From positions 186,001 through 250,000 of the forward strand of contig JAKSGN010000022.1 in assembly GCA_024180945.1 (NCBI GenBank): DNA of 64,000 bases. Reading direction: 5' to 3'. Position 1 is the stretch's first letter; every line of letters starts with the position of its first letter. The notes beneath the pieces are model-generated. The model was not told the origin of the DNA. It ran no database searches and saw nothing but the letters and a program-made list of their open reading frames with translations. The position numbers and the translations under genes were made by a program. Origin of the DNA: Macrophomina tecta. Its lineage: Eukaryota; Ascomycota; Dothideomycetes; Botryosphaeriales; Botryosphaeriaceae. Positions 3,674 to 62,945 of this stretch are shown piece by piece.

Positions 3674-5505
3674 ACGTATCCCACAAGCGAGCGGTGCACC
3701 TCATTAACAAAACGCGTCTCCTTAGCTTTTACCACCATGCAACAACCACAACATGTTCAATCTTCTTTATATGAAGCTCACCTACTCCTAGCATCACAAG
3801 CCATCGATCAAACCCACATTCAAAGTACTCGGGGTGCTGCAAGGGCGTATCGCGTCGCCGCAACAACGCTTACGCGACGACGCGACGGGATCCTCTCGCG
3901 ACGTGATTGCACGCCTAATTCTCGAAAACTCACGCCTACCGAGGAATCTGTGATTGTTCAACGCATTCTTGACCTAGATTCGCGAGGATTTCCGCCGCGA
4001 TTGAGTGCTGTTAAAGATATGGCAAATAAGCTACTCGCCGACCGCGCCGGACGTACCGTTGGCAAGAACTGGCCCTCCAACTTCGTGAAACGGACCCCCG
4101 GGCTTAAAACGCGTCTGAATCGCAAGTACGACTACCAGCGAGCGAAATGCGAGGACCCAGAGCTCATCGCGCAATGGTTCGAGCTCGTCCGGAACACTAT
4201 CGCGAAGTACGGGATCGTGGACGGAGACATGTACAACTTCGACGAAGCCGGCTTCCTTATGGGCATGATCGCAGCTGGAATGGTTGTCGCGGCATCGGAG
4301 CGACGCGCTAGACCCAAATCAGTCCAGCCAGGCAATCGCGAGTGGGTTACGGTGGTCCAGGGAGTCAACGCCGAGGGCTGGGCGATTCCGCCGTTCGTGA
4401 TTTTCAAGGGACAACACCACCTTTCTGCTTGGTACAGCGACGACGAACCACGCGATTGGGTCATCGCACTGAGCGAAAACGGCTGGACGACAAATGAGCT
4501 TGGTCTGCAATGGCTGCAGCACTTCGAAAAGCACACAAAGAATCGCACAACTGGAGCATGGCGACTTCTGATTCTTGACGGCCACGCGAGCCACAATTCG
4601 GCCGAATTCGACGCGTTCTGCCAGGAACGCAAGATCATCACGCTCTGCATGCCTGCGCATTCATCGCATCTCCTCCAGCCGCTCGATGTAGGCTGTTTTG
4701 CGCCTCTCAAGAAGGCGTACGGAAAGCAGGTTGAAGAGCTGATGCGATCCCACATCAACCACATCACGAAGCTCGAGTTTCTGCCTGCGTTCAAAACGGC
4801 GTTCGAAGCCGCATTTACGCAGCAGAATATCGTAGGCGGGTTCCGAGGCGCAGGACTGGTCCCGCTCGATCCAGAGGCCGTGATTTCCAAGCTCGATGTC
4901 AAGCTTCGGACGCCGACACGCCCGCAGGCAGAGGCCATAACTTGGGACGCTCAAACACCGCACAACCCAGCTGAATTAGCCTCTCAGACTGAGCTTATTA
5001 GGAACCGGATTGCAAAGCATCAGAACAGCTCACCAACGCCAATCAACCATGCGCTGAACCAGCTTGCTAAGGGGGCTCAAATGATGGCGCATTCGGCTGT
5101 TCTTCTGCAGGCGGAAGTCGCGAATCTTCAAAAGGCAAACGAGGCCGCAACGCGACGTAAAAAGCGGCAGAAAAAGCGGATTCAGAAGCGAGGGACTCTT
5201 ACGGTTCAGGAGGGGCAGTATTTAATCGATGGAGCTGCTGTTAACCAGCAGATTTCGCAGGAAACGCGCCAAAGTGGTGCGCGATCGTATGGGGCTGCGA
5301 CGAAGAAACGGCGATGTGGGCAATGCGGCGAGGCTGGACACAATTCTCGCACATGTCAAAAAGATGCGGAAAACGCTGTAGAGTAGAATGTATATTATAG
5401 GTAGTCGACTTTATAAGGCGTTGGAGAGTTATTCGTCCTTTAAGCGATTAAGGTTTAATGGGGTGCACCGCTCGCTTGTGTGCACCGCTCGCTTGTGGGA
5501 TACGT
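3674..5505 (+). mobile_element. Fot1/pogo-type DNA transposon E1, complete
   Basis: The element is 1832 bp and begins ACGTATCCCACAAGCGAG, ending in the inverted form. It is flanked by TA on both sides (3672-3673 and 5506-5507), the target duplication of Tc1/mariner-pogo elements. The right end has two tandem copies of a 17-bp subterminal motif (TGCACCGCTCGCTTGTG); the left end keeps only one, unlike most relatives in this window. It sits in the right terminal array of hAT1, so it is younger than that insertion. The transposase frame inside is open. Confidence 0.93.
3737..5386 (+). CDS. Pogo/Fot1-type transposase (DDE_1), intact, 549 aa
   Basis: Cut-and-paste transposase of E1. An N-terminal helix-turn-helix DNA-binding region (about residues 15-130, with SRRDC and GKNWPSNFVKR) precedes the DDE domain. 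The catalytic triad is visible as D169 (YNFDEAGF), D281 (LILDGHASH) and D317 (LLQPLDV), with 35 residues between the last two, the DD35D spacing of pogo/Fot1. A basic coiled-coil stretch (about 455-490) and a C-terminal CCHC zinc knuckle (CGQCGEAGHNSRTC) follow. There are no stops or shifts. The start ATG lies 63 bp inside the left end. It should act in the nucleus on its own terminal repeats. Close relatives in this window are at 30863, 36656 and 61081. Confidence 0.95.
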   Translation: MQQPQHVQSSLYEAHLLLASQAIDQTHIQSTRGAARAYRVAATTLTRRRDGILSRRDCTPNSRKLTPTEESVIVQRILDLDSRGFPPRLSAVKDMANKLLADRAGRTVGKNWPSNFVKRTPGLKTRLNRKYDYQRAKCEDPELIAQWFELVRNTIAKYGIVDGDMYNFDEAGFLMGMIAAGMVVAASERRARPKSVQPGNREWVTVVQGVNAEGWAIPPFVIFKGQHHLSAWYSDDEPRDWVIALSENGWTTNELGLQWLQHFEKHTKNRTTGAWRLLILDGHASHNSAEFDAFCQERKIITLCMPAHSSHLLQPLDVGCFAPLKKAYGKQVEELMRSHINHITKLEFLPAFKTAFEAAFTQQNIVGGFRGAGLVPLDPEAVISKLDVKLRTPTRPQAEAITWDAQTPHNPAELASQTELIRNRIAKHQNSSPTPINHALNQLAKGAQMMAHSAVLLQAEVANLQKANEAATRRKKRQKKRIQKRGTLTVQEGQYLIDGAAVNQQISQETRQSGARSYGAATKKRRCGQCGEAGHNSRTCQKDAENAVE

Positions 5506-5577
5506 TATAGACTTCTTCAATATTGAATTTTTTCAATATGGGGTCATATTGAGTATTGAATATTGAATGCAGCACTG

Positions 5578-6066
5578 CTTAGAGTATTGGTGCTCTCCAC
5601 AACCGTCAAGGACTGCAGGGTCGCTCCGGTGCCAGTCTCCGTGCTTGCAACCAAGGTGCCAAGGCCATCTGAGAGCGGAGCAGAGTGGGTCATCAACACA
5701 TCTTTTTCCAATATTAGCTCTCATGTTTCGAGCCAGCCTCGGCTGATTGAATAATGCGGCTTCGGCTTCGGCTTCCTCATCCTGTATGTCGGAAGAGGCT
5801 CCACCACACCATCCAGTGATAGAGTTAGTGCAAGCCGGCAGTACCGAGAACATGCGTGAGGGCATTATCTGACGGCGTCATAAGTTCAGTCAGAGCTGCG
5901 AGGGGTATTCATCCCCGAATATGCGCCCATACGTGGCACGTGTAACGGCGGGCTTCTTTTGTTTGAGGACCCAAACACCAAAGAGGGCGGAAAGCCGTGG
6001 GCACAAGAAGAGGGTGGTAATACGCAATAAGAGGTACGTGGCTGAGCGGAGGTCGTCTTACCAGCA
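5578..6066. other. No gene recognised
   Basis: Host-like sequence directly right of the hAT1 end. Open frames are short and have no recognisable motif. A short run of CTTCGG repeats is seen near 5758-5775. Nothing else is supported. Confidence 0.5.
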
Positions 6067-24301: not shown

Positions 24302-26685
24302 ATGTCATCCGATATCTCTTCTCGGACCGCTTCTATCCTTCCTACAGCCTCAACACCATCCACACCATTACATTTTGACGTCGTTATACGTACCGAATAC
24401 ATTGAGATCACCGAAGAAACCCATTCCGGTCGTAAGCGCCAGAAGAGAAGCAAAATACAATATACCTGTACAATCTGTTCGTCCTGGAGTTCGCACCATC
24501 GAACGAACGCCATTAAACGCGTCAATTCACGCACCCTGTACCTATATCCTCCGCTCAGTCCTCTCGATCAACGCCGGCCCCTACGCGCGATATTTCAACG
24601 ATTTTCACACCCATTTCATCACCAAACGGCCTTCGGAATAGCTTCAATCAACAAGCATACAAAGTAGCGATTATAGGGCTTCTCACGCGCCGCAGAATGC
24701 CCTTTTCAGCCGTGGAATGGAGCGAAATGAAAGATCTGGCCCTAGCCTGCAATCCAGCTATTGAGGACTTATTAATCACATCTCGACGAAGCGCGGTCCG
24801 ATATATTGCTTCAAACTATATGTGAGGGCTTGCACCCGGTGCGTTCACGGGTATGCAGTGGCATTGCTACCTACAAGAAGACTAAGCTGGAGAGAAAAGG
24901 AATAGATAAAAGACGAGGGCAGTGCGAGTAATATACACCCTGTGCACTGACTACTTTCCAGATTTGGCATGTTCTCGAACTTTCTCGCTCCCTCCACTGG
25001 CTACCTGCCGCAGGAATCATCCAAGGCATACTACGGGTCCAACCCGTGACAGCAGAACCCTCTAGAAGCGAATTCCCAGTCTGAACTTATTAAGACTCGC
25101 ATTTCTAGCCACCAGAATAGCTCCCCGACCTCGTTACTAGCGGCTGTTGACCAAATAGCTAAAGGAACGAAGGCAGTAATGCATCGGGTGGCCCTTTTAG
25201 AAGCAGAGAACTCTTCGCTACGTAAGGCCAACGGGGCATTAAGCAAGCGACGGAGGGCTAAAAAAACACGTGTCCGGCAAGGAGGGTCACTTACTATACA
25301 AGATGCACAAGGCCTACTGGATCAGAGGCTGTGGATGAGCAGGTGCAGCAGGAAATGCGTCAACATAGGGGTCAGTCGGAAGGGGCTCGTACAAAGTCGC
25401 GGCACTGCGGCAATTGTGGCAAGACCGGCCATAATACACGTACCTGCCAGTAGGCTGCAGAATCATCTGATTCATCTATTTCCGACGAAATTGTAGTAAA
25501 TTTGTAGTGTTGTGGTGGTAGAATTGAAGGTAATTGTGGTATAGTGGCGGATAGTGTTTCATCTCGCTTGTGTGTTCATCTCGCTTGTGGAGTACGTTAC
25601 CTTTAAGTCCCCTAGGAGATCCATATGTAAATTTAGCTCTACATCTCCGCTATTCGTTAGTACTAGTTTAACTAACTTTCGTAGCATGTGACAAGCTTCG
25701 TATACCGATCGATACCTACTGCCGGGAGGTCAGCAAGGCTCCTCGTAACGCCAGCGAGTATAATGTTGCCGACGATATGCTTTCTGAGGAGGAGTGGGAC
25801 GAGATTACGCAACTGAAGGAGCTTCTAAAGCCCTTCAAGCAGACCACAATGCGCCTGGAAGGCTCTGGCAGTAATGGAGCGTTTGGCTCGCTATGTGAGT
25901 CGCTTGTATGCATGGAGGCGATGCTATCAGCTTTGGAGGATAAGAAAGAGCAGCTGAGTCTTCAACCCAATACTCATTTGAAGGCGTGCGTCAATTTGGC
26001 ATGGAAGAAGATTAACACCTACTATAAGAGGAGCGACAAGACACCAGCCTACAGAGTAGCCGTGGCTCTTCATCCTTGCCTACGCTTCGCGTGGTTCAGG
26101 AAACATTGGAAGAACTTTCAGCAATGGCAAAAAGATGCGGAGGAGGCAACAAAGGCAATGTATTTGAACTACAAACGTTGCTCCGCTGATAGTACTCCAG
26201 TACAGCCAACCGGCCGCAACTACTCGCCCAGCGGCGATATCAACGCTTTCGACGAAATATGCCTTAACCTTGTGCCTGATGAGGACTCTGACCTCTCCAA
26301 CGACGAATATGACCGCTTCTTTAACGCCCCGCCTGAAAAGGACCATCGTAAATACTTACATAACCCATTAGAGTGGTGGAAGGAGCGTGCGGATGCGTAT
26401 CCAACGCTTAGCCGGATGGCGTTTGATCTTCTCTCATGCCCACCTACGTCATGCGACGCTGAACGGGTCTTTAGTGCTGCAGGCGACTACTTTAGCGGCA
26501 TACGAAACCGTCTACGCGACGATATAGGTGAGGAGCAGATGATTATGAAGTCTTGGCTACGCGAAGAACTCATCAGTCTCTATGGTTTGGGGGGAGCGAG
26601 AGGGAGGCCGCATGAGCCTCATGGATGCGTGTACATACTTCAACACCGTGGCATTACCCAATTAGGATGTATGATAGGCAATTGA
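24302..26685 (+). pseudogene. Restless-like hAT transposase, mosaic and broken
   Basis: N-terminal part about 24302-24835: ATG 24302 (MSSDISSRTASILP), a BED-like YTCTICSSW...H region, a frameshift near 24510, then AYKVAIIGLLTRRRMPFSAV and LLITSRRSAVRYIASNYM, a conserved Restless-type block, ending in TGA. The C-termin part resumes at about 25745 with LSEEEWDEITQLKELLKPF, LHPCLRFAWF, NPLEWWKERADAYPTLSRMA and SCDAERVFSAAGD, the hAT dimerisation block, to TGA 26683. The catalytic middle is missing. The gap contains unrelated sequence and a pogo 3' remnant (25050-25597). Confidence 0.8.
25050..25597 (+). mobile_element. 3' remnant of a pogo element
   Basis: The sequence matches only the C-terminal end of the pogo transposases here: SQSELIKTRISSHQNSSPTS, a basic coiled coil, then after a frameshift near 25320 a zinc knuckle CGNCGKTGHNTRTC. 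The right end keeps two copies of a subterminal motif (TTCATCTCGCTTGTG) and finishes GGAGTACGT followed by TA. The 5' three quarters are gone. It lies within the disrupted hAT at 24302-26685. Confidence 0.8.
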
Positions 26686-30781: not shown

Positions 30782-32630
30782 ACGTATCCCACAAGCGAGT
30801 GAGCCACCCAAGCGAGTGAGCCACCCCATCAACAAAACGCGACATCCTCGCGTTAGTCAACAATGCATCAACCAAACCACGTTCAATCTACCCCTTATGA
30901 AGCTCGAGTGTTCTTAGCGAAACAAGCTATCGATCAAGACCAAATTAAAAGCAATCGACTCGCTGCGAGCACGTATAACATCGACCGATCAACCCTTAAG
31001 CGTCGACGCGACGGGATCCCTTCACGACGCGATTGCACGCCTAATTCTCGAAAACTCACGCCCTTCGAAGAATCGGTTATTATTCAGCGTACCCTCGACA
31101 CGGATTCGCGAGGATATCCGCCCCGACTACGCGCTGTTGAAGATATGGCGAATAAGCTACTCGCCGACCGCGCCGGAGGTACCGTTGGCAAGAACTGGCC
31201 CTCCAACTTCGTGAAGCGGACTCCCGAGCTGAAAACATATCTGAATCGCAAGTATAACTACCAGAGAGCTAAATGCGAAGATCCCGAGCTTATTACGCGA
31301 TAGTTCACGCTTGTGCGAAACACTATCGCGAAGTATGGGATCGTGGATGGAGATATCTACAACTTCGATGAAGCCGGCTTCCTCATGGGCATGATTGCAG
31401 CCGGAATAGTTGTTACGGCCTCTGAACGACGCGCTCGACCGAAAATAGTCCAGCCAGGCGATCGCGAGTGGGTTACGGTGATCCAGGGAGTCAACGCTAA
31501 GGGCTGGGCGATTCCGCCGTTCGTCATTTTCAAGGGACAACACCACCTTTCCGCTTAGTATAGCGACGACGTACCGCGCGATTGGGCCATCGCATTAAGC
31601 GATAACGGTTGGACGACGAACGAGCTTAGTCTACAGTAGCTGCAGCACTTCGAAAAGCACACAAAGGATCGCACAACCGGAGCATGGCGACTTCTAATTC
31701 TTAACGGCCACGCGAGCCACAATTCGGCTAACTTCGACGTGTTCTACCAGGAACACAAGATCATCACGCTTTGCATGCCTGCGCATGCATCCCACCTCCT
31801 GCAGCCGCTCGATGTAGGCTATTTTGCGCCTCTCAAGAAGGCGTACGGAAGGCAAGTTAAAGAGCTGATGCGATCGCACATCAACCACATCACGAAGCTC
31901 GAGTTTCTACCTGCGTTCAAAGCTGCGTTCGAAGCCGCATTTACGGAGCAGAATATCGTAGGCGGATTCCGAGGCGCGGGAGTGGTTCCACTCGATCCAG
32001 AGGCCGTGATTTCCAAGCTCGATGTCAAGCTTCGGACAGCGACAGCCCCGCAGGCAGAGGCCGCAACCTGGGACGCTCAAACACCGCACAACCCAGCTAA
32101 ATTAGCCTCTCAAACTGAGCTTATTAGGAACCGGATTGCAAAGCATCAGAACAGCTCACCAACCCCAATTAACGATGCGCTGAACCAGCTTGCTAAGGGG
32201 GCTCAAATAATAGCGCATTCGGCTGTCCTTCTGCAGGCGGAAGTCGCGGATCTTCAAAGGGCAAACGAGGCCGCAACGCGACGTAAAAAGCGGCAGAAAA
32301 AGCGAATTCAGAAGCGAGGGACCCTTACGGTCCAGGAAGGCCAGGACTTAGTCGATAAAACTGCTATTAATCAGCAGATTTCGCAGGAAACGCGCCAAAG
32401 TGGTGCGCAATCGGAGGGGCCAGCGATAAAACGGCGGCGATGCAGGCAGTGCGGCGAGTCTGGACATAATTCTCGCACGTGTCAAAAAGATGCGGAAACA
32501 CTATAGAATAGGATGTATATTATAGATTGTCGATTTTATAAGGTGTTGTGGAGTTATTTACAATTCAAGTGGTTTAAGTCTGTTGGGATGGCTCACTCGC
32601 TTGGGTGTCTCACTCGCTTGTGGGATACGT
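30782..32630 (+). mobile_element. Pogo element E2, full length, RIP-damaged
   Basis: 1849 bp with ends ACGTATCCCACAAGCGAG and inverted GGGATACGT, TA on both sides. Left subterminal motif CAAGCGAGTGAGCCACC occurs twice; the right end has one exact and one altered copy. The transposase inside carries three stops and a lost catalytic Asp. Inserted into repeat copy B. Confidence 0.92.
30863..32506 (+). pseudogene. Pogo transposase of E2 with three TGG-to-TAG stops
   Basis: Collinear with the 549-residue transposase of E1 from ATG 30863 to TAG 32504. In-frame TAG at 31301, 31556 and 31637 each stand where E1 has Trp (TGG). The second catalytic Asp is Asn (LILNGHASH, codon at 31703). All four changes are G-to-A on this strand in a context that is CpA to TpA on the other strand, the RIP signature. 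The zinc knuckle (CRQCGESGHNSRTC) is kept. The copy is dead but otherwise full length, so it is a recent casualty. Confidence 0.93.
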
Positions 32631-32666: not shown

Positions 32667-33800
32667 ACGTATCCCACAAGCGAGCGGACCACCCAAGCGA
32701 GCGGACCACCCCATCAAATCTCAATCGCTTTAAGTACGAATAACTCCACAACGCCTTGGATAATTAACTATCTATAATAGAGAGCCTATTCTATAGTAGT
32801 TTGCGCATCTTTTTGACATGTGCGAGAGTTGTGACCAGGCTCACCGCATTGCCCACATCGCCGTCGCTTCGTCGCAGGCCCATCCGATTGCGCACCACCT
32901 TCGCGCGTTTCCGTCGAAATCTGCTGGTTAACAGCATTTTTATCGACCAAATCCTGCCCAGCTTGAATCGTTAGCGTCCCGCGCTTCTGAATCCGCTTTT
33001 TTTTTTTTTTTTGGCCGCTTCTTGCGTCTCGTTGCGGCCTCGTTTGCCCTTTGAAGATTCGCGGCTTCCGCCTGCAAAAAGACAGCCGAATGCGCCATCA
33101 TTACCGTAACCCATTCGCGATTGCCTGACTGAACAGTCTTTGATCGAGTATGTTGCTCCGATGCTGTAACAACCATTCCAGCTGCGATCATGCCCATAAG
33201 GAAGCCGGCTTCATCGAAGTTGTACATGTCTCCGTCCACGATCCCATACTTCGCGATAGTGTTCCGGACGAGCTCGAACCATTGCGCGATGAGCTCTAGG
33301 TCCTCGCATTTCGCTCGCTGGTAGCCGTACTTGCGATTCAGATGAGTTTTAAGCCCGGGAGTCCGTTTCACGAAGTTGGAGGGCCAGTTCTTGCCAACGG
33401 TACGTCTGGCGCGGTCGGCGAGTAGCTTATTTGCCATATCTTCAACAGTACTCAACCGCGGCGGAAATTCTCGCGGATCTAGGTCGAGAATGCGTTGAGC
33501 AATCACAAATTCCTCGGGATCGGTAAGCTTTCGCGAATTGGGCGTGCAATCGCGTCGTGAATGGGTCCCGTCGCGTCGTCGCTTAAGAGTCATTCGATTG
33601 ACGTGTTACGTTTCCGCAGCGCCCCGATTACTCCGAATTCTGCCTTGATCGATAGCCTGCTTTGCTAAGAATAGACAAGATTCATATAAGGGAGATCGCG
33701 CATGGTTTGGTTGTTGCATGGTTGATAGAAGCTAAGGTGACGCGTTTTGCTGATGGGGTGGTCCGCTCGCTTGAGTGATCCGCTCGCTTATCCGATACGT
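32667..33800 (-). mobile_element. Pogo element E3, internally deleted derivative
   Basis: 1134 bp on the minus strand with pogo ends ACGTATCCC...CGATACGT, TA on both sides, and subterminal motif CAAGCGAGCGGACCACC in two copies at the left; the right end has two variant copies. Compared with E1 about 700 bp are missing from the middle. It keeps both ends and so could be moved in trans by a related transposase. It lies 36 bp from E2 in the same repeat copy. Confidence 0.9.
32940..33719 (-). pseudogene. Pogo transposase of E3 lacking the catalytic core
   Basis: Starts at ATG 33719 (MQQPNHARSPLYES), has a TAA at the Tyr codon of the first helix region, then reads well through the helix-turn-helix and the first catalytic Asp (YNFDEAGF). 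It then joins NREWVTV directly to MMAHSAVFLQ, which in E1 lie about 240 residues apart, so the second and third catalytic Asp are gone. A run of about 16 T (A on the coding strand) near 33000 shifts the tail. Confidence 0.88.
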
Positions 33801-36574: not shown

Positions 36575-38407
36575 ACGTGGTTCACAAGCGAGTGACACAC
36601 ACAAGCCAGTGACACACTCCACCAAGTTCACGCGACGCGTTAACAACTAACCGCGATGCAGCAACCACCCAGCATTGAATCTATTTACTACGAAGGCAGG
36701 ATAACCCTAGCTATTGAAGCTATCAACCGAGATCAAATCCAGAGCGAACGACGCGCTGCTTCAACCTTCAAGTGCGCCCACAAGACGCTGAGCCGACGAC
36801 GCGCCGGAACGACCGCGAGACGCGATTGCGAGCCCAACTGCAAGAAGCTTACTAAGTTTGAAGAACTTGCGATTGTCGAACATATACTTAACCTAGATTC
36901 AACAGGGTTCCCGCCCACAAAGGAGGCAGTGCGAAATATGGCCAATAAACTGCTGGACGAGCGTGGTGGAAAGCCAGTAGGCAAGAACTGGCCAGCCAAC
37001 TTCATCAAGCGTACGCTTGAGCTCAAGACTCAACAGAGTCGATCGTATGATCACCAGCGAGCCTTGAACGAGGATTCGCGAGTAATCAGCGACTGGTTCA
37101 AGCTTGTACAGTCCATAAAAGCGAAGTACGGCATCCTGGACAAAGACAGCTACAACTTTGATGAAACTGGCTTTATGATGGGCGTTATCTCGTCGCAGCT
37201 TGTTGTTACAGGCTCAGAGAGGCGTGGCAAGCGGAAAGTTGTCCAGCCAGGCAATCGTGAGTGGACCACGGTGATCCAGGGTATCAACGCTGCTGAGTGG
37301 GCGATTCCACCCTTCATCATCTTCGCTGGCAGGAACCACATCTCCAGCTGGTACGAGGACAACGCCATACCTGGCGACTGGGTTATTGGGGTCAGCGAGA
37401 ACGGCTGGACAACAGATGAGCTTGGAGTCGCGTGGTTGAAGCACTTCGACGCGCACACGAAGACGTACCGTGGGCACGCATCGGCTGCTAACTATCGACG
37501 GCCACAGCAGCCACGACTCGCTCGATTTCCAGGAAATCTGCAAGGAGAGTAATATTATTACTCTGTGCATGCCTGCGCACTCGTCGCACCTGCTGCAGCC
37601 GCTTGATGTGGGCTGCTTCTCGCCCTTGAAGCGCGCGTATGGGGACCAGATCTGTGGCTTGGCGCGCAACCGCATCAATCACATCACCAAGCTGGAGTTC
37701 CTCCCTGCTTTTAAGGCGGCTTTTGAGAAAGTTTTTACAAAGAATAGCATCTGCTCAAGCTTCCGAGGCGCTGGGTTAGTTCCATTCGACCCAGAGGCGG
37801 TGTTATCCAAGCTTGGTGTGCAGCTTCGCACGCCGTCGGCCCCCGCCGCTGACACCACGCTATGGGAGTCCAAAACACCAAGCAACGCCCGTGAGCTAGG
37901 CTCTCAATCAACTCTGATTCGCGATCGGATTCGAAGGCATCAAGATTCTTCACCTACTTCGATTGTTGATTCGTTTGATCGACTTACTAAAGGCGCTGAG
38001 ATAATGATGCACTCAGCAGCGTTACTGCGCGATGAAATTGCAGACCTTCGAAAGGCAAATGGGGCAGCAACAAAGCGTAGGAGTCGCAAGAGGAAGTATA
38101 TACAGAATCAGGGGACATTAATAAGGGAGGAGGATTCTAAATTAATTGCTGCTAAGGACGGTGGTGAGCATGAGGAGGGTAAGAAGGCTGCAAAGAGGTT
38201 GCGCGTAGGTGGGGGAACGACGCAGCAAAGGCGCTGTGGGCGCTGCGGCAAGACAGGACACAATTCCCGTACGTGCGAGGAAGAAGTAATGATAGTCAAT
38301 AGTCCAAGATAATCCTGTATATCACAGTAACTTGTTGTGGTGTTAAGCTATTTACCTGCAGAGGTGTGTAAACTTGGTGGGGTGTGTCACTCGCTTGTGA
38401 ACCACGT
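36575..38407 (+). mobile_element. Pogo element E5, full length
   Basis: 1833 bp; left end ACGTGGTTCACAAGCGAG, right end inverted (GAACCACGT) followed by TA. The left neighbour is AA instead of TA, so the target duplication has mutated. The left subterminal motif CAAGCGAGTGACACAC is present twice with one base change, the right has one copy. Its transposase carries a single frameshift. Confidence 0.9.
36656..38312 (+). pseudogene. Pogo transposase of E5 with one frameshift
   Basis: ATG 36656 (MQQPPSIESIYYEGRIT). The helix-turn-helix region, YNFDETGF and WTTDELGVAW are in the first frame; after a one-base shift near 37465 the frame continues THRLLTIDGHSSHDS, HLLQPLDVGCF and the zinc knuckle CGRCGKTGHNSRTC to TAA. 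The DDD triad is kept on both sides of the shift and no stops occur otherwise. Sequence is clearly diverged from E1, E2 and E6. Confidence 0.9.
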
Positions 38408-46434: not shown

Positions 46435-46462
46435 CAGACATCCCAATAATAAATAAATACAT
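44750..46462 (-). pseudogene. Copia pol, reverse transcriptase and RNase H only
   Basis: The frame is open for 570 codons: HPFGDRFMDALLEEIKKL, WVFKYKFDEEGYLIKFKARL, YGLKQSPALW and the catalytic FFFVDDIVIIY of copia reverse transcriptase; RNase H follows with SSDASFASDIDTRKSIQGF and TTSSTEAELLALS, ending in the typical C-terminal region. The first dozen residues come from the hAT3 end, so the start ATG is not native. There is no gag, protease or integrase. The remaining domain is undamaged. Confidence 0.88.
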
Positions 46463-49329: not shown

Positions 49330-52300
49330 AGGAGCCGCTGCGGATCCTCCAGCTGAACGTCGGAAAACAGAAAGAGGTTCAGTGGAGCCTGCTTAACGAC
49401 ACCGACACGGCACGGTTCGACGTTCTGGTAGTTGCAGAGCCGTATATCTTTGCGCTTACGGGCGAGGATAAAGCGAGGGTCACTTCTCACCGCCAGTGGG
49501 AAGCAGTGACCCCAACAATACAAAGAACGGGCAGTCATGTCAGACACAGCTTTCGAGCGATGCTCTGGCTAAATCACAACGTCCAGGGGCAGCCTGTACC
49601 GACTCAATCATCAGACATCGCGGCAGTCCTTGTCCGCAGCCACGGTGTTCCAGTCCTGATCTTTTCCGTCTACATCCCTCAGGGTGGGAAGACGATATAC
49701 GACCACGAAGATCAACTAAAGGAGCGCCTGAAGATTCTTGACGCGACGATTGAACAAGGAGACGGAGGGAGAGGCTCTACAGGTAGTGGTAGCCGGCGAC
49801 ATTAACCGCCGCGACCAACTTTGGGGAGGAGATCATGTAGCTACGGATCTGAGACAGGGGGAGGCCAAGGAGCTACTCAACTTCATGCAACGTCGAGAGC
49901 TGCAATCTCTCCTTAAACCGGGGACGGTTACCTGGGAACACCAAGACGGCAACTCGAGATCCACTATCGACGTGATACTGGTAACTGAGCTGCTCGCTAG
50001 CAGGAAGGTCAAGTGCCAAGTCTACCCAACGGATCACGGGTCCGACCACCGGGCCATAGAGACGGAAATCGACCTCGAGGCGTGCAGGAACTCCTCACGA
50101 GCTGGACGATTACTTTTCGAGAAGGCGGACTGGGGAGCCATAAGAAAAGAGCTAGAAGAGACGCTACCACCACCAGCTCCGTGCCCGGACGTCATTGCGC
50201 TAGAGCAGGAGGCCGAGGCATTCCTACAGCATACCCAAAGAGCCGTCCAGTTTCGGGTACCATTAGCTCGATCGTCTCCATATGCGAAGAGGTGGTGGAC
50301 TGAGCGACTATCAATCTTGCGGAGGACAGTCTCGTCGTTGACGAATCACTGCACGACGCTACGAAGACAGGGACATCGAGTAGATGACGCGCACGAGCAG
50401 CTGCGAGCGGCTAGACGTCAATATTTCCAAGAGATCCGTGCGCAGAAAACGGCCCACTGGCGGGAATTCATCTCCGACCCAGCAAACGCGTGGAGGGCGA
50501 ACGCATTCACGAAAATGGAACAGTCATTTGCCAAGGTCCCACCCCTTGCAAAAGATGACAAGGTCGCCAGAACAGACGAAGAGAAAGCCGAGATGTTAAT
50601 GGAGACCTTTTTCCCACCACAAGCAACGCCGCAACTCCAGGCAGCCACATCAACCACACAATTAGAGCCGCTAATTATGGGGCCTCTAACAGAGGATGAA
50701 GTTAAAAAGGCAATCTTCACGGCGAACCCGCGAAAGGCGCCAGGCGCGGACGGCCTTACGTTCAGAGTGTGGAGAGAGCTCTGGCCGGTAGTAGGGCGGC
50801 ACATCAGCTGCCTATACCAAGGATCACTACGGCTGGGTCACCTACCAAGGGCATGGCGAGTGGCCAAGATCGTTACGCTAAGGAAGCCGGGAAAGTCCGA
50901 CTACACGATCCCAAAGGCCTATAGACCGATTTCACTACTACCAACTATTAGCAAGGGCCTTGAAGCAGTGGTGGCAAACAGGATATCGTATCTAGCTGAC
51001 ACAAACGGACTGCTCCCAGCTAATCACTTCGGGGCACGCCGGCAAAGATCCTGTGAGCAGGCGCTGAACGTCCTAATCGAGAAGGTCTTCTGGGCATGGA
51101 GAAGGCAGCAGGTATTGTCTCTCGTTACTTTCGACGTACAGGGAGCGTACAACGGAGTCCACAAAGAGGTTTTGTGCCGGAGACTTCAGGCAAGAAGAAT
51201 GCCTGCTGCTATCGTGCGGTGGGTAGAGAGCTTCTGCAGCGAGAGGAAGGCATGTATAACAGTAGGTGGTTTCTGCTCGCCAGTGGCAGACGTTAAGCAC
51301 GCAGGCTTGCCTCAAGGCTCGCCTCTATCACCCATCCTCTACATCATCTACAACGCAGACCTCGTCGAGGCACCGATCAACCAGAAGGGCGGAGCTCTAG
51401 GCTTCGTTGACGACTACACTGTTTGGGTCACTGGCCCAACCGCCAGCCACAACGTCCAGAGGCTGCAGCAGGAGGTGATTCCGAAAGCCGAAAAATGGGC
51501 CGCAGAGAGCGGAGCAACGTTCGAGGCGGATAAGACGAGGCTGATTCACTTCACCCGCGTCAACAGACGAAGAGATTCGCCCGAAACACCGTTGGTCTTT
51601 CAAGGGACTAGAATCTCAGACAGCGAGCAGGTGAAGGTTCTCGGGGTCCTGCTCGACAACCAGCTCACTATGGTGCCCCACGTCACCAACGGTGGCGAGT
51701 AAGGCAATCACGCAGTGCTTGGCGATTAAGAGACTCAGAGGCGTAAGCCCAAGAGGAATGAGACAGCTATACCAGGCGACGGTCACTCCAATTACCGACT
51801 ACGCCGCGTCGACGTGGTACGCTCCGGGAAGACTAGGCGTAGGAAAGCTCGTACGGCACCTAGAAACAGTCCAGCGATTGGGAGCACAAGCCGTGACAGG
51901 CGCGTTTCGCACAGTCGCCCTACCAGTCGCCGAAGGAGAGGCGTGCCTAACGCCGGTCGACTTCCGATTGCGCGCTAAAGTGTCGAAAAACCTGGTAAGG
52001 CTGTACACGCTACCACCAGACAATCCAGCGGTAGACTGCATCAAGCGTTTCCCTAAGCAAGGGGAGGTATATCCCTCCCCGCTGAGAAAGACTTGGGACC
52101 ATTACGGAAGCCTCATCGCTCCGGAAAAGGCAGCTCCCATAGAAACAATCGTACCATGGGCTCTTCCACCGTGGGAGCGCGATATACAGTCGGACATCGT
52201 CATTATCGATCGAGACAGCGCTATCGCAAAGGCGCAGGCCCTGCCATCCGCCGATACCGTCTTTACCGATGGGTCATGCAGATACGGGCTCTGCGGCGCC

Positions 52301-53280
52301 GCGGCAGTCCGCTCGACTAAGACGAAAGGGTTCATGACTATCAGACAAGAGACAGTGGAACGGAGCAAAAACGCACCAGTAGTGATGGCAGAGCTACATG
52401 CCATAGTATTCGCATTGGAATGGCTAGTCCAGCGCCCGCGCCAGACGGATGCGCCAATACCAGGTCGCATAGTGCACACCTTCTGGGTGGTCACGGACAG
52501 TATAAAGGCACTCCAGCGCCTTGGCAAGTCGCAAGCAAATTTCTCGGGGCAGTACCTAGTTAAGAGAGCACGAGACCTTATCGTCAGGATCGAAGTCAAA
52601 GGGGCAACAGTTAAGTTCTTATGGGTGCCAGCCCACAGCGGTGTTGCTGGGAACGAGGCTGCACACCGCGCCGCCCAGGAGACGACAACGCCAGGGCTGC
52701 AGCCAACAGTCGACAGGCGTTGCAGGCGACGGGCAAGGGAGATAGTCGAGTTAGTGGTAAAGCAGAAGGTGCAGCATGAACGGGAGGAGGCGGCGGCGAA
52801 GCCGAGCCCTTGGGGAAAATACACACGTAAGCTGGACGGAGCCTTCCCAGGGCAGCACACACTGCGGCTGTATAACAGCCTCGATGCGGAGAGCGCAGCA
52901 ATCCTCATCCAGTGCCGAACTAACCACAGCTTCCTCCGAGAGTTCCTCTTCCAGCTACGGAAAGAGGAGTCAGGACAGTGCGAATGCGGCAAGGGATGGA
53001 GACTGTGCGACACGTCCTCTTGGTCTGTCCGCGGTGGCAGCAGACTCGCAGCGAGCTGGCGAATATCGTAGGTAAGAGGTGGGGAGACGTTTCTTACATG
53101 CTTGGAGGATGGAGCAGGAGGCAGGACTGGCGGACTGGGCAACCGGTCGATGGGCCAAAGGAGCGATGGAGGCCGGACGTGCGGGTGGTCAAGGCGGTGG
53201 TGCAGTTCCTGAAGTCGACCGCTCGGCTGTCCGGCCGGGATAGAACGGGTGGGGCGGTACAGCCGCTGCACGACCATTAA
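49323..53280 (+). pseudogene. LINE ORF2: endonuclease, reverse transcriptase, RNase H
   Basis: Starts MLEEPLRILQLNVGKQKEV, an apurinic-type endonuclease start; VVAGDINRRDQLWGG and STIDVILV are further endonuclease motifs. The reverse transcriptase has PGADGLTFRVW, YRPISLLPTISKGLE, FDVQGAYNGVH, GLPQGSPLSPILY and GFVDDYTVW (FADD in most relatives). RNase H shows VFTDGSCRYGLC, MAELHAIVFALEW and FLWVPAHSGVAGNEAAHRAA. The C-terminus has CECG...H...C. Frameshifts lie near 49745, 51690 and 52995. Without them the protein would be about 1315 residues, normal for the family. It acts by target-primed reverse transcription when intact. Confidence 0.9.
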
Positions 53281-55788: not shown

Positions 55789-55944
55789 GGTGTGGAACAG
55801 CCGGCACAGCAACAACGGCTACCCGGAGAAGTGTCAGCGACAAGATCAAATTCATTTCCATCAAAACAAGAAACCCGCAAATTTTGCGATCCCTCCCACC
55901 CGGGCTTCTGGCGTATCGAGCAGCCCTGGCTCGAGCACGGCAAA

Positions 55945-56797: not shown

Positions 56798-58630
56798 ACG
56801 TGTTTCACCACTCAGTGGGCCACACCAGTCAGTGGGCCACCCCACCAACACCAAAACGCTTATTAGTACAGTTATTTCACCATAACGCCTTTAATTTAAT
56901 CAAAATCCCTATCTGACCACTCTCTAGTTATTAGGACATCGGCGAATCGTGTGGCCTTGTAAATGACAATTGCTGCACGTCGGTGGCGCGCGTTGCCGTA
57001 CAGCCGTCGCCTCCCGTTGATCAGCCTCTTGTTCCCCATTTCCTATCCCGTGAACTAAGAACTGCCCCTGCTGAGCCTGCAGAGCGCCTCCCTGTGCAAT
57101 ATATCTTCGCCGGTATTGCTGCTTCTGTTTTCGCCGTTGGTTAGTCGCGCGAAGCTCCGAATTCTCCTTTGCAAGTATCACAGCTGAATTCATCGCCATC
57201 TGACATCCCTTCACAAGTTGACTAAATGCCTGGCTTGTCGGGCTCTGCGATTGGCGTTGAATAAGATCCCGTATAAGCCGAGCCTGTTGCTCTAGCTGGG
57301 TTAGAGTATGAGGTGTTTCCGACGTCCACTGAGGTGCGTGTCCATTAGCTGTAGCTGGTGGAGAGGGTGTTTTGGTGACGGTAAGCGACGATAAGACGCG
57401 TTGTGGGTTGCACGGTATAAGCCCCGTGGCTTGAAATCCACTTCTAATGTTTTGACTCGTAAATACTGATGGGCGCACCCTCGAGTATATTGCGAGAAAG
57501 TCATCTTTGTCGATATGGTGGATTCCTTGGCGGACGCTTTCTTGAACCTCCTGACCGTACAAGCGCTTAAGAGGGGAGAAGCAGCTTACATCAAGCGGCT
57601 GGAGAAGGTGCGATGTATGCGCAGGCATGCAGAGCGCGATAATGTTGTTTGAAATGCAGTATTGGTCAAATTCAGGTGTTGCATGGCTGCTGTGGCCGTC
57701 GAGGAAGAGTAGACGGTAGGCTCCCTTTGTACAGGACTCTGTGTGCGTATTGAAGTGCTTGATCCATTCAAATCCGAGCTGGTCAGTCGTCCAGCCATTG
57801 CTGCTTACAGCAATTACCCAGTCAGCCGGCAGTCCTCGATACCAGTTTGACTGGTGGACCTTTCCGGCGAGGATGATGAACGGCGGAATCGCCCAGCCGG
57901 ACGCGTTGATGCCCTCGATCGCCGTTGTCCACTCACGGTTTCCTGGCTGTACGACAACTGCTCGGCCGATCGTATCGGAGCTTGTAACAACCTTAGATGT
58001 CGCAACTACACCCATCATAAATCCTGTCTCGTCAAAATTGTAGACGTCGTCATCGAGAATGCCGTACAACTGACGCGTCTCTTGAACACGCGTAAACCAC
58101 GCGTTAATTGTGTCTGGATCCTCGCATTTGGCGCGTTGTGAATGGAACTTTCGATTCCATTTCGTTTTAAGCTTAGGCTGGTTGTTGATAAACCGAGATG
58201 TCCAATTCTTGCCGACTGGCTGAGGTGGAGGATTATGGCCGCGCGCTGCCAGTAAACAGTCCGCCATCCTTCGTACATCGATAATCTGGGGAGGGAATCC
58301 TCGCCGATCGAGGCTTAGGATCCACTCAACCAAAGCCTTTTCCTCGGACGGCTGTAGCTTTCGTTTTTGCGAATTAGACGCGCTTTGTGAGGCCGTTCCA
58401 TCAAGACGACGTTGGAGAGTAGTTCGAGGTATATCGTACGATGTTGCAGCCTTGCGAATGCTCGAAACTCGATCGTTTTGAACAGCATGCTTAGCAAGGA
58501 GTAGTCTGCCCTCTTTCTGGGGTGATTCGAGGTTCTGTGTTGATGTCATTGTTGATTTGCACGAGGACGCGTTTTGGTGTTGGTGGGGTGGCCCACTGAC
58601 TGGTGTGGCCCACTGAGTGGTGAAACACGT
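56798..58630 (-). mobile_element. Pogo element E4, complete
   Basis: 1833 bp, ends ACGTGTTTCACCACTCAG and inverted, TA on both sides (56796-56797, 58631-58632). Each end carries two copies of a subterminal motif (CACTCAGTGGGCCAC and CAGTCAGTGGGCCAC), clearly different from the CAAGCGAG type of E1, E2, E3, E5 and E6. The right flank is repeat copy C; the left flank is unrelated. Transposase open. Confidence 0.93.
56924..58549 (-). CDS. Pogo transposase of E4, intact, 541 aa
   Basis: ATG 58549 (MTSTQNLESPQKEGRLLLA) is chosen because it matches the start of the related transposases; the frame is open 39 codons further upstream into the terminal repeat. The helix-turn-helix region reads KAATSYDIPRTTLQRRLDG, then VGKNWTSRFI. 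Catalytic residues D173 (YNFDETGF), D284 (LFLDGHSSH) and D320 (LLQPLDVSCF) show DD35D. The C-terminus has a basic coiled coil and the knuckle CSNCHLQGHTIRRC. No lesions. Probably able to act on its own ends. Confidence 0.95.
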   Translation of the reverse strand: MTSTQNLESPQKEGRLLLAKHAVQNDRVSSIRKAATSYDIPRTTLQRRLDGTASQSASNSQKRKLQPSEEKALVEWILSLDRRGFPPQIIDVRRMADCLLAARGHNPPPQPVGKNWTSRFINNQPKLKTKWNRKFHSQRAKCEDPDTINAWFTRVQETRQLYGILDDDVYNFDETGFMMGVVATSKVVTSSDTIGRAVVVQPGNREWTTAIEGINASGWAIPPFIILAGKVHQSNWYRGLPADWVIAVSSNGWTTDQLGFEWIKHFNTHTESCTKGAYRLLFLDGHSSHATPEFDQYCISNNIIALCMPAHTSHLLQPLDVSCFSPLKRLYGQEVQESVRQGIHHIDKDDFLAIYSRVRPSVFTSQNIRSGFQATGLIPCNPQRVLSSLTVTKTPSPPATANGHAPQWTSETPHTLTQLEQQARLIRDLIQRQSQSPTSQAFSQLVKGCQMAMNSAVILAKENSELRATNQRRKQKQQYRRRYIAQGGALQAQQGQFLVHGIGNGEQEADQREATAVRQRAPPTCSNCHLQGHTIRRCPNN

Positions 58631-58778: not shown

Positions 58779-58998
58779 GAATGCAGCACTGCTGCGCCCT
58801 GTAGGCAAGCTCCGGCGCTGCGAATGGCAAGTCCGGCAGACTATGCAGCATCTACGTAGCGCAGACAGTTAAGAAGTTGGAATGTTTAATTAACTGGGCG
58901 GCCCTTAAGGGATGTCCACAGTCCGTGCACACTCCCAGTCCGTGCACACCCCTTCAAAAATCCGCACCCAGATTTTGAACCGCTGCATCTCGCTCGAT

Positions 58999-60935
58999 AT
59001 GGACCCAATTGAGGCCGCGCTTGATGATCTGAAATCCCAAGATCCCCCAAATTACAAGGCCACTGCCAAAAAGTTCGGATGCTGCCGTACGACACTGTCA
59101 CGTCGCCATCGAGGCGTCACCGCTTCTCAAGCTTCAAGTGCGGAATCGCATCGATTGCTCAACAACAACCAAGAAAGGGAGCTTGTTGAATATATAAACA
59201 AGCTTTCTGAGCGTGGGATTCCCCCAACGCAAGCAATGGTTCGCAATTTCGCAGAAGAAATGGCGCAGCAAAAACCAAGCAAAAATTGGGTCTCCAGATT
59301 CGTCAAACGCCATCAGGATCAGCTCAAATCCGTGTATTTAAGCGGCCTCGATCTAAGCCGCAAGAATGCTGAATCTGTCCCTCGGATTCAGGGCTACTTT
59401 GAGCTGGTTTGTACTGCCCAAACGGTGCTTGTTTATTTACTAATTTAGCGCAGATTCAGGCCAAAGTCCGCGAATATGGTGTCCTCCCCAAAAACTCGTA
59501 CAACATGGATGAAAAGGGCTTCCTAATTGGCCTACTGCACAAAACGCAAAGGGTTGTATCCAAACAAGCGTTCGAAGGTGGTAGTTTGATTAGTTCTGGG
59601 CAAGACGGCAATCGCGAGTGGATTTCGCTGCTTGCTTCGATCTGCATGGACGGCACCTTTCTACCACCTGCAGTTATATACCAGGCCCGAACAGGCAATC
59701 TCCAGGACACTTGGTTGGACGACTATCACCCGGATACGCAGTGTGCATTCTTTGCAAGCAGCCCAAACGGTTGGACAAGCGTATCCCTGGGATTTCATTG
59801 GCTAACGCGCGTGTTTGACGCGTATACTAAGCCAAAAGCGCGCTACGGCCGAGATTATCGCTTGTTGTTTGTTGATGGCCACGGGAGCCATATAAACATG
59901 CGATTTCTGAATTGGTGCGAAGCCCATAGGGTGCTTGTTGCTGTGTTTCCGCCTCATTTGACCCATCGGTTGCAGGCCCTGGATGTCTCCCTTTTTAGCC
60001 CCTTGGCCAACTGTTACCAACAACAACTCGATTCGTGGATTCACGCAACAGCAGGCCTTTCAAGGATGACCAAGCGCGAGTTCTGGAGCTTGTTTTACCC
60101 TGCCTTCGAAGCTGCTTTCACGCAAGCAAACATTGAATCTGGCTTTGCCAAGACGGGCCTGCACCCGTTAAATCCGGAAGCTGTTTTGCAGCACCTGCGC
60201 AAACACGAGGCCCCGCGGCCACCGAGCAGCACCAATCCCATCCAACTGTCACCAAGCAATTTGCGTAAGCTCAAACGCACTACCAGATTAGGCGTTGAAG
60301 CGGCAATTGCTACGTCGTTGGTGCCGAAGCTGCTCGACTGCTGGGAGTCAGCGGAAACCCGGATTCAGCTTCTAGAACACGAGCTTGCAGGGATGAAGAA
60401 GACTGTTTCGCTTGAGAAGAGGCGCCGCAAGCGTGGACAGGCTTTACTTAGCAATCTGTTTGAGATGACGCAGGGCGAATCAATATTCATCTCTCCCAAG
60501 AAGATTATTAAGGCGCGCGAGCAACTCGAGCGGAAGGAACACGAGAAGGAGCAAGCAGAGCGTGCAAAAGAGGAAGCAAAGATTCGGAAGCAAGCTCTGA
60601 AAGAGGAAAAACAACAACAAGCGGAGCATCTGAAGGCAGAGCGTCAACAAGCAAAGATACAGAAGGCTGCAGAAAAGGAGGAAGCGAAGCGCCAAAAGGA
60701 GGCGAGACAGCGGCTTCAACAGGAGACCAAACAACAACAACAAGCAGCCAAATCGCCACAGAAGAAGCCTTCCCAAAAGGGCAAGAACACTGCACCGAAA
60801 CGGAAGCGCGTTGTTGTTGAGATTTCTGATGATGAAGCTACACGGTCGCAATCACTGGCCAAGCGACCACGGCGCGCGCGCAACCTCCCAAAATGGCTAC
60901 AGGGCAAAGACATTCAAATAGGACGTTTCGTGTAG
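58999..60935 (+). CDS. Pogo-like transposase of E7, two exons, 629 aa
   Basis: Exon 58999-59406, intron 59407-59453 (GTTTGT...GCAG, 47 nt, TACTAAT branch), exon 59454-60935; 630 codons with stop. The N-terminal helix-turn-helix has KKFGCCRTTLSRRHRG, then PSKNWVSRFVKR. Catalytic D155 (YNMDEKGF), D277 (LFVDGHGSH) and D313 (LQALDVSLF) again give DD35D. The C-terminal 170 residues are a long Glu/Lys/Gln coiled coil followed by basic clusters and VVVEISDDEA, another SUMO-interacting-like motif. It has no zinc knuckle, unlike the E1 group. The frame is undamaged. Confidence 0.92.
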
Positions 60936-60999
60936 ATTCGAATAAATATACTGCCAAATTTGGTAGCAATTGATGATGTTGTTGTTGAGTTATTCTATA

Positions 61000-62849
61000 A
61001 CGTGTTCCACAAGCGAGTGCATCACACAAGCGAGTGCATCATCTCCCCCACCAAAACGCGTCTCCTCTCTTTAAGACGCGATGCCTCAACCAACTCATCA
61101 TCAATCATTAAATAATGAAGGTGCAGTTATTCTAGCTGTTTCAGCGCTCCAGAAAAACCAAATCGCGACCGCCCGAGGCGCTGCAAAGGAGTACGCCGTC
61201 CACTACTCGACCGTGAATCGACGCGCTAAAGGAATCCCTTCCCGACGCGATTGCGCACCTAACTCTCGAAAGCTCACGCCTACCGAAGAATCCGTTATCG
61301 TCGAACGTATTCTCGGCCTAGATTCGCGAGGATTTCCGCCCCGACTCGAAGCCGTTAGAGATATGGCAAACAAGCTCCTCGCTGGCCGCGCTGGAGGCCA
61401 GGTTGGCAAGAACCGGCCTACCAACTTCATAAAGCGGACCCCTGAGCTCAGAACACGTCTGAATCGCAAGTACGATGACCAGAGGGCTAAATGCGAGGAT
61501 CTAGAGCTTATTACGGACTGGTTTAACCTCGTACGGAATACAATCGCGAAGTACGGGATCGTAGACGACGATATCTTCAACTTTGACGAAGCGGGCTTCC
61601 TTATGGGCGTTATTGCAGCCGCAATGGTTGTCACAGCCTCCGAACGACGTGCTCGACCAAGGACAAGGCAGCCAGGCAATCGCGAGTGGGTTTCGGTGAT
61701 CCAGGGAGTCAACGCGAAAGGGTGGGCGATCCCGCCGTTCGTGATATTCAAGGGACAATACCACCTTTCAGCTTGGTACAGCGACGATATACCAGGCGAT
61801 TGGGTTATCGCAACGAGCGATAACGGTTGGACGACAAATGAGCTTACGTTCCAGTGGCTGCAGCACTTCGAAAAGCACACGAAGGATCGCACAACTGGAG
61901 CATATCGTCTTTTGATTCTTGACGGCCACGAGAGCCATCATTCGGCTGAATTCGAGTCGTTTTGCCAGGAACATAAGATTATCACGCTCTGTATGCCTGC
62001 GCATTCATCCCACCTCCTCCAACCACTTGATGTCAGTTGTTTTGCGGCCCTTAAGAAGGCGTACGGGAAGCGGATCGAGGACCTGATGCGAAACCACATC
62101 AACCACATCACAAAGCTCGAATTTTTACCAGCGTTTAAAGCGGCGTTCGAAGCCGCCTTCATACCGCAGAATATCACTGGAGGATTCCGAGGCGCAGGAT
62201 TAGTCCCACATAATCCAGACGCCGTGATTTCAAAGCTTGATGTTCGACTTCGGACGCCAACGCCACCCCAGACCGAGGCTACGGCTTGGGACTCCCAAAC
62301 ACCACACAACCCAGCTGAATTAGTCAGTCAAACTGAGCTTATTAGGGTTAGGATTGCACGGCACCAGGATAGCTCACCAACGCCAATTAACGAGGCGTTG
62401 AGTCAGCTCGCAAAGGGGGCTCAAATGATGGCGCATTCAGCTGTTCTGTTGCAGGCCGAAGTCGCGGGCCTTCAAAAGGCAAATGAGGCCGCAACAGGCC
62501 GTAAAAAGCGCAAGAAGAAGCGAATCCAGCAGCGAGGGACGCTTACGATTCAAGAGGGCCAGGACTTAATTAATAAAGCTGGTGGTAATGGGCAGATTTC
62601 GCAGGAAATGCGACAAGGTGATGCGCAATCGGATGGGCCTGCGATAAAGCGACGGCGATGTGGGCAATGCGGCGATGTTGGGCATAATTCTCGCACATGT
62701 CAAAAAGATGCAGAAACCACTATAGAATAGAACGTATATTATAGATAGTCGATTTTATAACGCATTGTGGAGTAATTCATACTTAAAGTGGTAGAGGTTT
62801 AATGGGGTGATGCACTCGCTTGTGTGATGCACTCGCTTGTGGAACACGT
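61000..62849 (+). mobile_element. Pogo element E6, complete, nested in E7
   Basis: 1850 bp, ends ACGTGTTCCACAAGCGAG and inverted, TA on both sides (60998-60999, 62850-62851). Two copies of CAAGCGAGTGCATCA at each end. The surrounding E7 sequence continues without loss across the insertion. The transposase is intact and closely similar to that of E1. Confidence 0.95.
61081..62730 (+). CDS. Pogo/Fot1-type transposase of E6, intact, 549 aa
   Basis: Same length and layout as the E1 transposase: helix-turn-helix region (GAAKEYAVHYSTVNRRAKG, SRRDC), D169 (FNFDEAGF), D281 (LILDGHESH), D317 (LLQPLDVSCF), coiled coil and zinc knuckle CGQCGDVGHNSRTC. GKNRPTNFIKR replaces GKNWPSNFVKR. No stops or shifts. 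Its subterminal motif differs from that of E1 although the proteins are close, so the N-terminal differences are of interest for end recognition. Confidence 0.95.
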   Translation: MPQPTHHQSLNNEGAVILAVSALQKNQIATARGAAKEYAVHYSTVNRRAKGIPSRRDCAPNSRKLTPTEESVIVERILGLDSRGFPPRLEAVRDMANKLLAGRAGGQVGKNRPTNFIKRTPELRTRLNRKYDDQRAKCEDLELITDWFNLVRNTIAKYGIVDDDIFNFDEAGFLMGVIAAAMVVTASERRARPRTRQPGNREWVSVIQGVNAKGWAIPPFVIFKGQYHLSAWYSDDIPGDWVIATSDNGWTTNELTFQWLQHFEKHTKDRTTGAYRLLILDGHESHHSAEFESFCQEHKIITLCMPAHSSHLLQPLDVSCFAALKKAYGKRIEDLMRNHINHITKLEFLPAFKAAFEAAFIPQNITGGFRGAGLVPHNPDAVISKLDVRLRTPTPPQTEATAWDSQTPHNPAELVSQTELIRVRIARHQDSSPTPINEALSQLAKGAQMMAHSAVLLQAEVAGLQKANEAATGRKKRKKKRIQQRGTLTIQEGQDLINKAGGNGQISQEMRQGDAQSDGPAIKRRRCGQCGDVGHNSRTCQKDAETTIE

Positions 62850-62945
62850 TAATTAATATCGTGTGCAGATTTCTGAAAGGGTGTGCACGGACTGGGAGTG
62901 TGCACGGACTGTGGACATCCCTTATTGCTCATCTGCTCCGCAGCG

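Follow-up and report, generated by a model that had tools for sequence, protein, structure and literature searches.

Introduction

The transposase of the Drosophila element pogo is said to bind, through its N-terminal helix-turn-helix (HTH), a 12-bp site that occurs twice at each end. In the available parts of the reports on the closest described elements, TremA is given as 1850 bp long, with 547 amino acids and inverted repeats that contain a 17-bp internal direct repeat (PMC2836289), DAHLIAE1 has 15-17-bp direct repeats and ACGT tips (PMC3441728), no direct repeats were found in the Sclerotinia families (PMC4188875), and the domain set of Fot is described (PMC7386202). That the combination of terminus and transposase ensures specificity is stated in two of these papers, as far as their accessible text goes (PMC3441728; PMC4188875). 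Here we analyze a 64,000-nucleotide stretch of the genome of Macrophomina tecta (the window, C20:186001-250000, in 54.1 Mb and 37 contigs), which carries six pogo-type elements of the same type (E1-E6) together with E7, a more distant element that hosts the nested E6, and we report that across 32 families single residues of the transposase DNA-binding domain track single bases of the subterminal repeats.

As in the elements described here, the subterminal sites of Drosophila pogo are reportedly repeated, but that is a single family, without a code. In the end-specificity of Mariner/Tc1 elements and the cross-mobilization of Stowaway elements, related elements are separated or cross-moved through end recognition; these are other families, and we know of no residue-to-base table for them. 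In the available portions of the Fot, TremA and DAHLIAE1 and 2 accounts, the repeat sequence is not linked to DNA-binding residues (PMC7386202; PMC2836289; PMC3441728), and the idea of terminus/transposase specificity, qualitatively the same as ours, comes there without a residue-level code or a cross-family test (PMC3441728; PMC4188875). Because of the TremA, DAHLIAE1, Sclerotinia and Fot accounts, the architecture is already known and the specificity idea is in print. What appears to be new is the residue-to-base code: no table linking residues of pogo transposases to bases turned up in a literature search, with subscription papers mostly outside its reach, and of the 583 papers that contain one of four short tip and unit strings, the 15 examined by title seemed to be on other subjects.

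Results

Transposase residues track bases of the subterminal unit

Each end of E1-E7 consists of a 10-bp tip followed by a 17-bp unit that is mostly doubled, in a single register throughout. The tandem subterminal motif that the original prediction had seen in all seven elements, usually twice, was thus recovered, with a period of 17 bp in place of the 14-17 bp given there. Unit positions are numbered p1-p17 and comprise a near-constant half (p1-8), a family half (p9-13) and p14-16, which are mostly CAC; residues of all families are numbered after the E6 transposase.

The code was fitted on 32 chosen families, one representative per combination of helix and unit, with a readable N-terminus and end required. 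Where units differ within a family the outer one was taken (in f30, the inner, full-length one); residue 115 of f07 lies in a misaligned insertion, f32 is without that region, and two stops in f14 were read as X. Kept outside the fit were E7, E3, the chimaeric L024, copies resembling products of repeat-induced point mutation (RIP; such as L010, L021, L030, L050 and L056), same-family duplicates and L115, a locus described below.

The residue-base pairing was first spotted by eye in the element table, followed by a scan of columns against positions (32 families, 121 columns). Residue 47 against p10 gave an adjusted mutual information of 0.777 (runner-up of the 121 columns 0.30; maximum of 60 shuffles 0.256), and residue 42 against p13 gave 0.791 (runner-up column 0.30; 60-shuffle maximum 0.351). 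It had been suggested that the motif is a code co-evolving with the HTH and that its variation be compared with N-terminal residues; this comparison places 47/p10 and 42/p13 far above the other columns and strongly supports the idea, with residues 42 and 47 of the first HTH tracking p13 and p10, and residue 115 of the second tracking p2. At residue 47, R (14 families) goes with G at p10, D (11) with C, N (2) with T, A (2) with G, and S, T and H, once each, with T, T and G (32/32). At residue 42, R (17) goes with C at p13, E (5) and P (2) with G, H (2) with A, and among the single cases A goes with G, K and I with A, and N and Y with T (31/31, f29 being unscored). At residue 115, N accompanies A at p2 in 20/20 families and R accompanies C in 9/9, R being found in three separate clusters.

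Near sisters differ in the same way: E4 (R47, TGGGC) against f16 (D47, CCGGC), f24 (H47, CGACG) against f25 (D47, CCGCG), and f22 (A47, CGGGC) against f23 (D47, CCGTC). The other family positions, p9, p11 and p12, are predicted less well, with 3-7 errors from one residue and 0-2 from residue pairs, which have few repeats, so that only tendencies can be given there: Q46 or K46 occurs with a purine at p12 in 9/9 families and R46 with a pyrimidine in 14 of the 15 scored, while T43 occurs with G at p11 (13/13). Pairings of Arg with G, Asp or Glu with C and Asn with A, on either strand, are expected chemistry and constitute no test of the code.

Prediction across clusters and outside the fit

The families fall into nine clusters at 70% identity from residue 53 on. 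When each cluster was left out in turn, p10 was predicted with 25 right, 0 wrong and 7 unseen, p13 with 26, 0 and 5, and p2, from residue 115, with 29, 0 and 3; the best rival columns gave 19 right and 6 wrong for p10, and 18 right and 10 wrong for p13. E7, outside the fit, has R42, R47 and R115 with C at p13, G at p10 and C at p2 in the same register. Scans of external genome contigs for relatives found none, and those of viral contigs found one locus, L115, with a pogo-like gene (41% identical; IMG/VR contig IMGVR_UViG_3300009325_000066). It has T47 and R115, and its end (TA-ACGTAATCTA-TCACCGAGCTGGCCGGA-TCACCGAGCTGGCC; single end found) has T at p10 and C at p2, while its L42 is outside the table. 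In f29, f30 and f32 the N-terminus was joined to the end after the rule had been noted, and p10 was right in 3/3 and p13 in the 2/2 scored, with parts already visible before the rule (the f29 and f30 proteins, the f29 units and the f32 end).

The diverged elements L061-L064, L068 and L020:4782-6473 were unusable for the code test, their ends or first HTH being unrecoverable; the inverted repeats of L063 contain a repeated block, different in sequence, and its first HTH is unreadable. The few organism-named database relatives are all ascomycetes. By eye, the first 140 residues of f08 are only a few residues apart from those of P0094, a Botryosphaeria dothidea protein, and the Verticillium dahliae database protein P0010 seemingly consists of two pogo transposases head to tail.

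Organization of the ends and agreement between them

Reading of tips and units bore out the positions and motifs previously given for the seven elements and for a remnant at 25597. The tip is ACGT plus six bases in E1-E6 and AGGGATGTCC in E7, which begins with AGGG and is without the Fot/pogo ACGT tip. Counted from ACGT, the inverted repeats of E1-E6 amount to 10 + 2 x 17 bp, some ends being single-unit, which fits the ~40-60 bp of Fot/pogo. The constant half is CAAGCGAG in most families and CCACTCAG, CCACCGAG, CCAGTGAG, TAACCGAG, TCAGYGAG and others elsewhere. The motifs quoted in the original prediction are correct; the list was incomplete, lacking the variant ATGAACAC that forms the family-specific half of the remnant. 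Loss or decay of one copy had also been noted and is confirmed at the left end of E1 and the right end of E5, both single-unit, and at the right end of E2, where two units are kept and both are substituted; a unit of E3 at the 33800 end is decayed as well, and the left inner unit of E5 is altered. A genome scan with the pattern CAAGCGAGYGNNNCAC gave 167 + 153 matches against 0 with the reversed control, and the units are therefore not due to chance.

The genome was searched with seven window and locus transposases, the best 75-85 of 526-765 candidates being scored for each, so that element counts are lower bounds. Sequence was read for 60 multi-kilobase loci and for 46 short stretches, element ends for the most part; the resulting table has 71 elements, of which 58 are whole and 13 are in two pieces. 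Ends were compared in 68 of these, selected for family diversity and not at random; one L033 element, E7 and L097/L098 were unreadable by pattern or coordinates. Two units per end are present in 52 of the 68, and one at one or both ends in 16 (counted up to two). Four tandem units stand in the left end of E1-type elements at L015:951 and G000:C4:31868-31934 (C1 and C4).

The left and right ends share one outer p9-13 sequence in 60/68 elements, and 41 of 49 distinct end-pair types agree, against a mean of 2.4 and a maximum of 10 when right ends were re-dealt (2000 shuffles); both ends of E7 agree by eye. These figures uphold the claim that the motif is shared by the two ends of an element and differs between elements, and neither of the outcomes named as refuting it, random assortment of motifs and N-termini or frequent mismatch between left and right, was seen. 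Outer p10 differs between left and right in 0/68 elements. The eight elements whose ends disagree are L024, three that mix CCGTCC and CCG-CC, E2, E3, L071/L072 (at p12) and L094/L095 (at p11). Comparison of outer with inner units within an end (114 ends) shows 2-3 differences at each of p10-p13, 13 at p9, 24 at p4 and 36 at p16. In L039, L040 and L094/L095 outer and inner units are unlike (e.g., TCGCG and CCGCG; TGACC and CGCGC), in the same way at both ends of L039 and L040.

Non-autonomous copies and mosaics

A family with five in-frame TAG codons accounts for 41 of 79 scored matches, at full query length (37 with equal score) and scattered over many contigs. In the two copies whose ends were read, one of them a shorter type outside the 41, the units are exactly those of intact f23, and the family is apparently a dead RIP-like copy amplified in trans by f23. 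A 424-bp miniature inverted-repeat transposable element (MITE) shares its 44 terminal bp without a difference with both ends of the f18 element L054 and has at least 20 matches (83-100% identity over 264 bp or more, in the best 40 of 50 candidates). The MITEs L111-L113, whose bodies are 67-68% like it, carry the f17 code, while L114 and L053:3649 are alike only in their outer ~140 bp and carry GCTGGCC. No intact partner of the GCTGGCC elements was found among the 32 families, and the transposase expected for them under the code would have R42 and, at residue 47, S, T or N. These shared codes would fit trans-mobilization of non-autonomous elements by the family of the same code.

The non-autonomous E3 is a mosaic that runs from f05-like through f04-like to f03-like sequence, and L099 (93% identical) is another copy of it. 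In both, the two ends bear the f03 code (with a substitution at p13 in one E3 unit); ~60% is f05- or f04-like and the last ~430 bp is f03-like. L024:1328-3178 is a chimaera with the f03 code CGGAC on the left, the f06 code TGAGC on the right and a broken transposase frame.

Between families f02 and f04 the identity is 95-99% over bp 641-1640 and 87-88% over bp 241-640. It falls to 62-71% over bp 11-240 and 68-79% over bp 1641-1840, and to 62-76% over the first HTH and the units of both ends; f04 is one unit short at the left end, which shifts the alignment there slightly out of register. Synonymous divergence (dS) for this pair rises from 0.11 beyond residue 125 to 0.44-0.70 in the DNA-binding domain. 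The reverse holds for f03 and f04 (0.73 beyond residue 125, 0.18-0.29 in the first HTH), and f18 against f15-f17 gives >1.1 in the first HTH (one value undefined) and 0.45-0.60 beyond residue 125. Single values are rough, since the windows for the first HTH comprise only 13 and 38 codons. Judged from this divergence, the patterns are those of recombination, in which the first HTH and both ends would constitute a shell and the catalytic part an exchanged core. The ratio of nonsynonymous divergence to dS exceeds 1 in some helix comparisons (f15/f16 1.49, f03/f04 1.21, f04/f05 1.35) and not in most, and positive selection is not claimed.

Predicted structure of the DNA-binding domain

When the DNA-binding domain of E6 was modeled with AlphaFold (mean predicted local distance difference test score 80.7; predicted template modeling score 0.51), helices 42-49 and 112-119 came out as the third helices of two HTHs, which puts residues 42, 47 and 115 at the expected places of recognition helices. 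CENP-B on its box (1hlv) was the top but weak match in two structural comparisons, with a sequence identity of 12-16%, and a PDB sequence search with the domain found no relative. CENP-B places two HTHs on one bipartite site, its box being 17 bp long, an arrangement that the transposase may share; it differs in being a host protein with one fixed site.

Elements and genes of the window

Coordinates are collected in Table 1. The transposase frame is intact in E6 (open reading frame, ORF, 61081-62730), broken in E5 and interrupted by three in-frame TAG codons in E2; that of E7 has the first-HTH helix CCRTTLSRR (42 = R, 47 = R) and R115 in the second HTH. Profile searches with eight ORFs, several of them fragments, found DDE_1 in 7/8, HTH_Tnp_Tc5 in 3/8 and HTH_psq in 1/8, the E4 ORF being above cut-off for all three. 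The Asp triad D169, D281 and D317 is invariant in 16 sequences, and the spacing of 35 residues between the second and third is as in Fot/pogo. Flanks are TA on both sides in 6/7 elements, and AA on the left and TA on the right in E5; Fot differs from these Fot-like pogo elements in its target duplications, given in the accessible part of its description as TAA, with TA in 54 of 385 elements (PMC7386202). The window ORFs 44750-46462, 47235-48830 and 49738-53071 resemble, by eye, a copia-type polyprotein, a hAT-type transposase and a long interspersed nuclear element with reverse transcriptase and RNase H.

Table 1. Positions of elements, units and recognition-helix codons (window coordinates unless a contig is named).
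Feature	Position	Strand	Units and remarks	Code (p9-13)
E1 (family f04)	3674..5505	+	left unit 3684-3700, single; right units 5479-5495, 5462-5478	CGGTG
E1 transposase ORF	3737-5386		DDE_1 and HTH_Tnp_Tc5 present	
E1 codons 42-49, recognition helix of first HTH	3860..3883	+	42 = A, 47 = R; helix from E6 model	
Remnant end (family f11)	25554..25597	-	units 25571-25587, 25554-25570 (latter with one extra base)	ATGAA
E2 (near family f06)	30782..32630	+	left units 30792-30808, 30809-30825; right units 32604-32620, 32587-32603, both substituted	TGAGC
E3, non-autonomous, 1134 bp	32667..33800	-	units 32677-32693, 32694-32710, 33774-33790 (substituted), 33757-33773	CGGAC (f03)
E5 (family f28)	36575..38407	+	left units 36585-36601, 36602-36618; right unit 38381-38397	TGACA
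E5 codons 42-49	36779..36802	+	42 = H, 47 = R; from protein and alignment	
E4 (family f15)	56798..58630	-	units 56808-56824, 56825-56841, 58604-58620, 58587-58603; constant half CCACTCAG	TGGGC
E4 codons 42-49, counted from MTSTQ	58403..58426	-	42 = R, 47 = R	
E7	58908..62922	+	units 58918-58934, 58935-58951, 62896-62912, 62879-62895	TGCAC
E6 (family f01), nested in E7	61000..62849	+	units 61010-61026, 61027-61043, 62823-62839, 62806-62822	TGCAT
E6 codons 42-49, first-HTH recognition helix	61204..61227	+	42 = Y, 47 = R	
Five-TAG copy (L073/L074)	C7:771175-772821			
Five-TAG copy (L075/L076)	C7:759258-760844			

Discussion

We consider it highly probable that bipartite recognition of the units, a residue code, exchange of cores between shells and sister families that move their own defective copies together explain these elements. 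An end would consist of a 10-bp cleavage tip and one to four tandem 17-bp sites for the bipartite DNA-binding domain of the transposase, the second HTH (Tc5 type) reading the conserved half, with residue 115 setting p2, and the first HTH (psq type) reading the family half, with residue 47 setting p10 and residue 42 setting p13; residues 43 and 46 probably bias p11 and p12. Direct contact between these residues and the bases, and a code that sets the specificity of mobilization, are what we infer from the co-variation. Specificity may then shift by either of two routes, a helix substitution accompanied by a matching change at both ends, or a recombination that swaps the catalytic core between shells. 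In this presumed order of events the outcome would be sister families, each moving itself and its own defective copies and MITEs.

The correspondence could reflect shared descent only, ends and N-termini having diverged together with no contact between residue and base. The left end and the first HTH lie within ~250 bp and may travel together, and the families form clades. Such a history is common to all columns, yet error-free prediction comes only from residue 47 for p10 and residue 42 for p13, and the right end, ~1.6 kb off, bears the same code. The changes moreover recur in separate clades: on a tree from residues 53 onward, parsimony changes coincide in 10/10 cases for the residue-47 class and p10 and in 13/13 for residue 42 and p13 (classes set post hoc), and random characters simulated on this tree reached the observed value in 0/3000 runs for each pair. 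Descent as the sole cause is thus largely refuted and very improbable.

Copying between ends, by recombination or gene conversion that drags the adjacent first HTH along, would make the match mechanical and perhaps leave recognition unaffected. Recombination between families is seen in E3/L099, in L024 and in the f02/f04 core, and copying accounts for the agreement of the ends, but not for the base-by-base mapping of two helix columns; families of different clusters with the same residues also share p9-13 (f09 and f23, R42/D47, CCGTC; f14 and f25, E42/D47, CCGCG), and we regard this mechanism as improbable. That the units are sites for a host factor (silencing, chromatin or transcription) or promoter elements rather than transposase sites would agree with the position of the left units upstream of the transposase start codon, yet units occur at both ends and on code-matched MITEs and track residues of the transposase, which leaves such a role extremely improbable.

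Recognition by the transposase would also bear on how the families coexist. Isolation between families by the code is likely, although incomplete, because some distinct families share the same p9-13 (f20/f31, f09/f23, f14/f25 and f18/f21, with f20/f31 identical over p1-p16), which weighs against a full barrier to cross-mobilization. Since catalytic cores appear to be exchanged between shells, this isolation would be that of a lock and key with interchangeable engines. With moderate confidence we lean towards a broader reading, a portable amino-acid-to-base code for HTHs of the psq/Tc5 type in which about three residues fix three bases, a change of code makes a transposon 'species', and the cores are a common pool recombined between shells.

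The coexistence of sister transposons, and the joint change of a transposase and two distant ends, are usually argued from few elements. Here one genome provides 32 natural variants and a table that predicts bases from residues, and the code would explain which elements a given transposase can move. If binding bears it out, the transposase that mobilizes an orphan MITE or a dead copy could be named, the sites of uncharacterized pogo transposases could be predicted, and work on recognition by related HTH domains, domesticated ones included, could start from the table.

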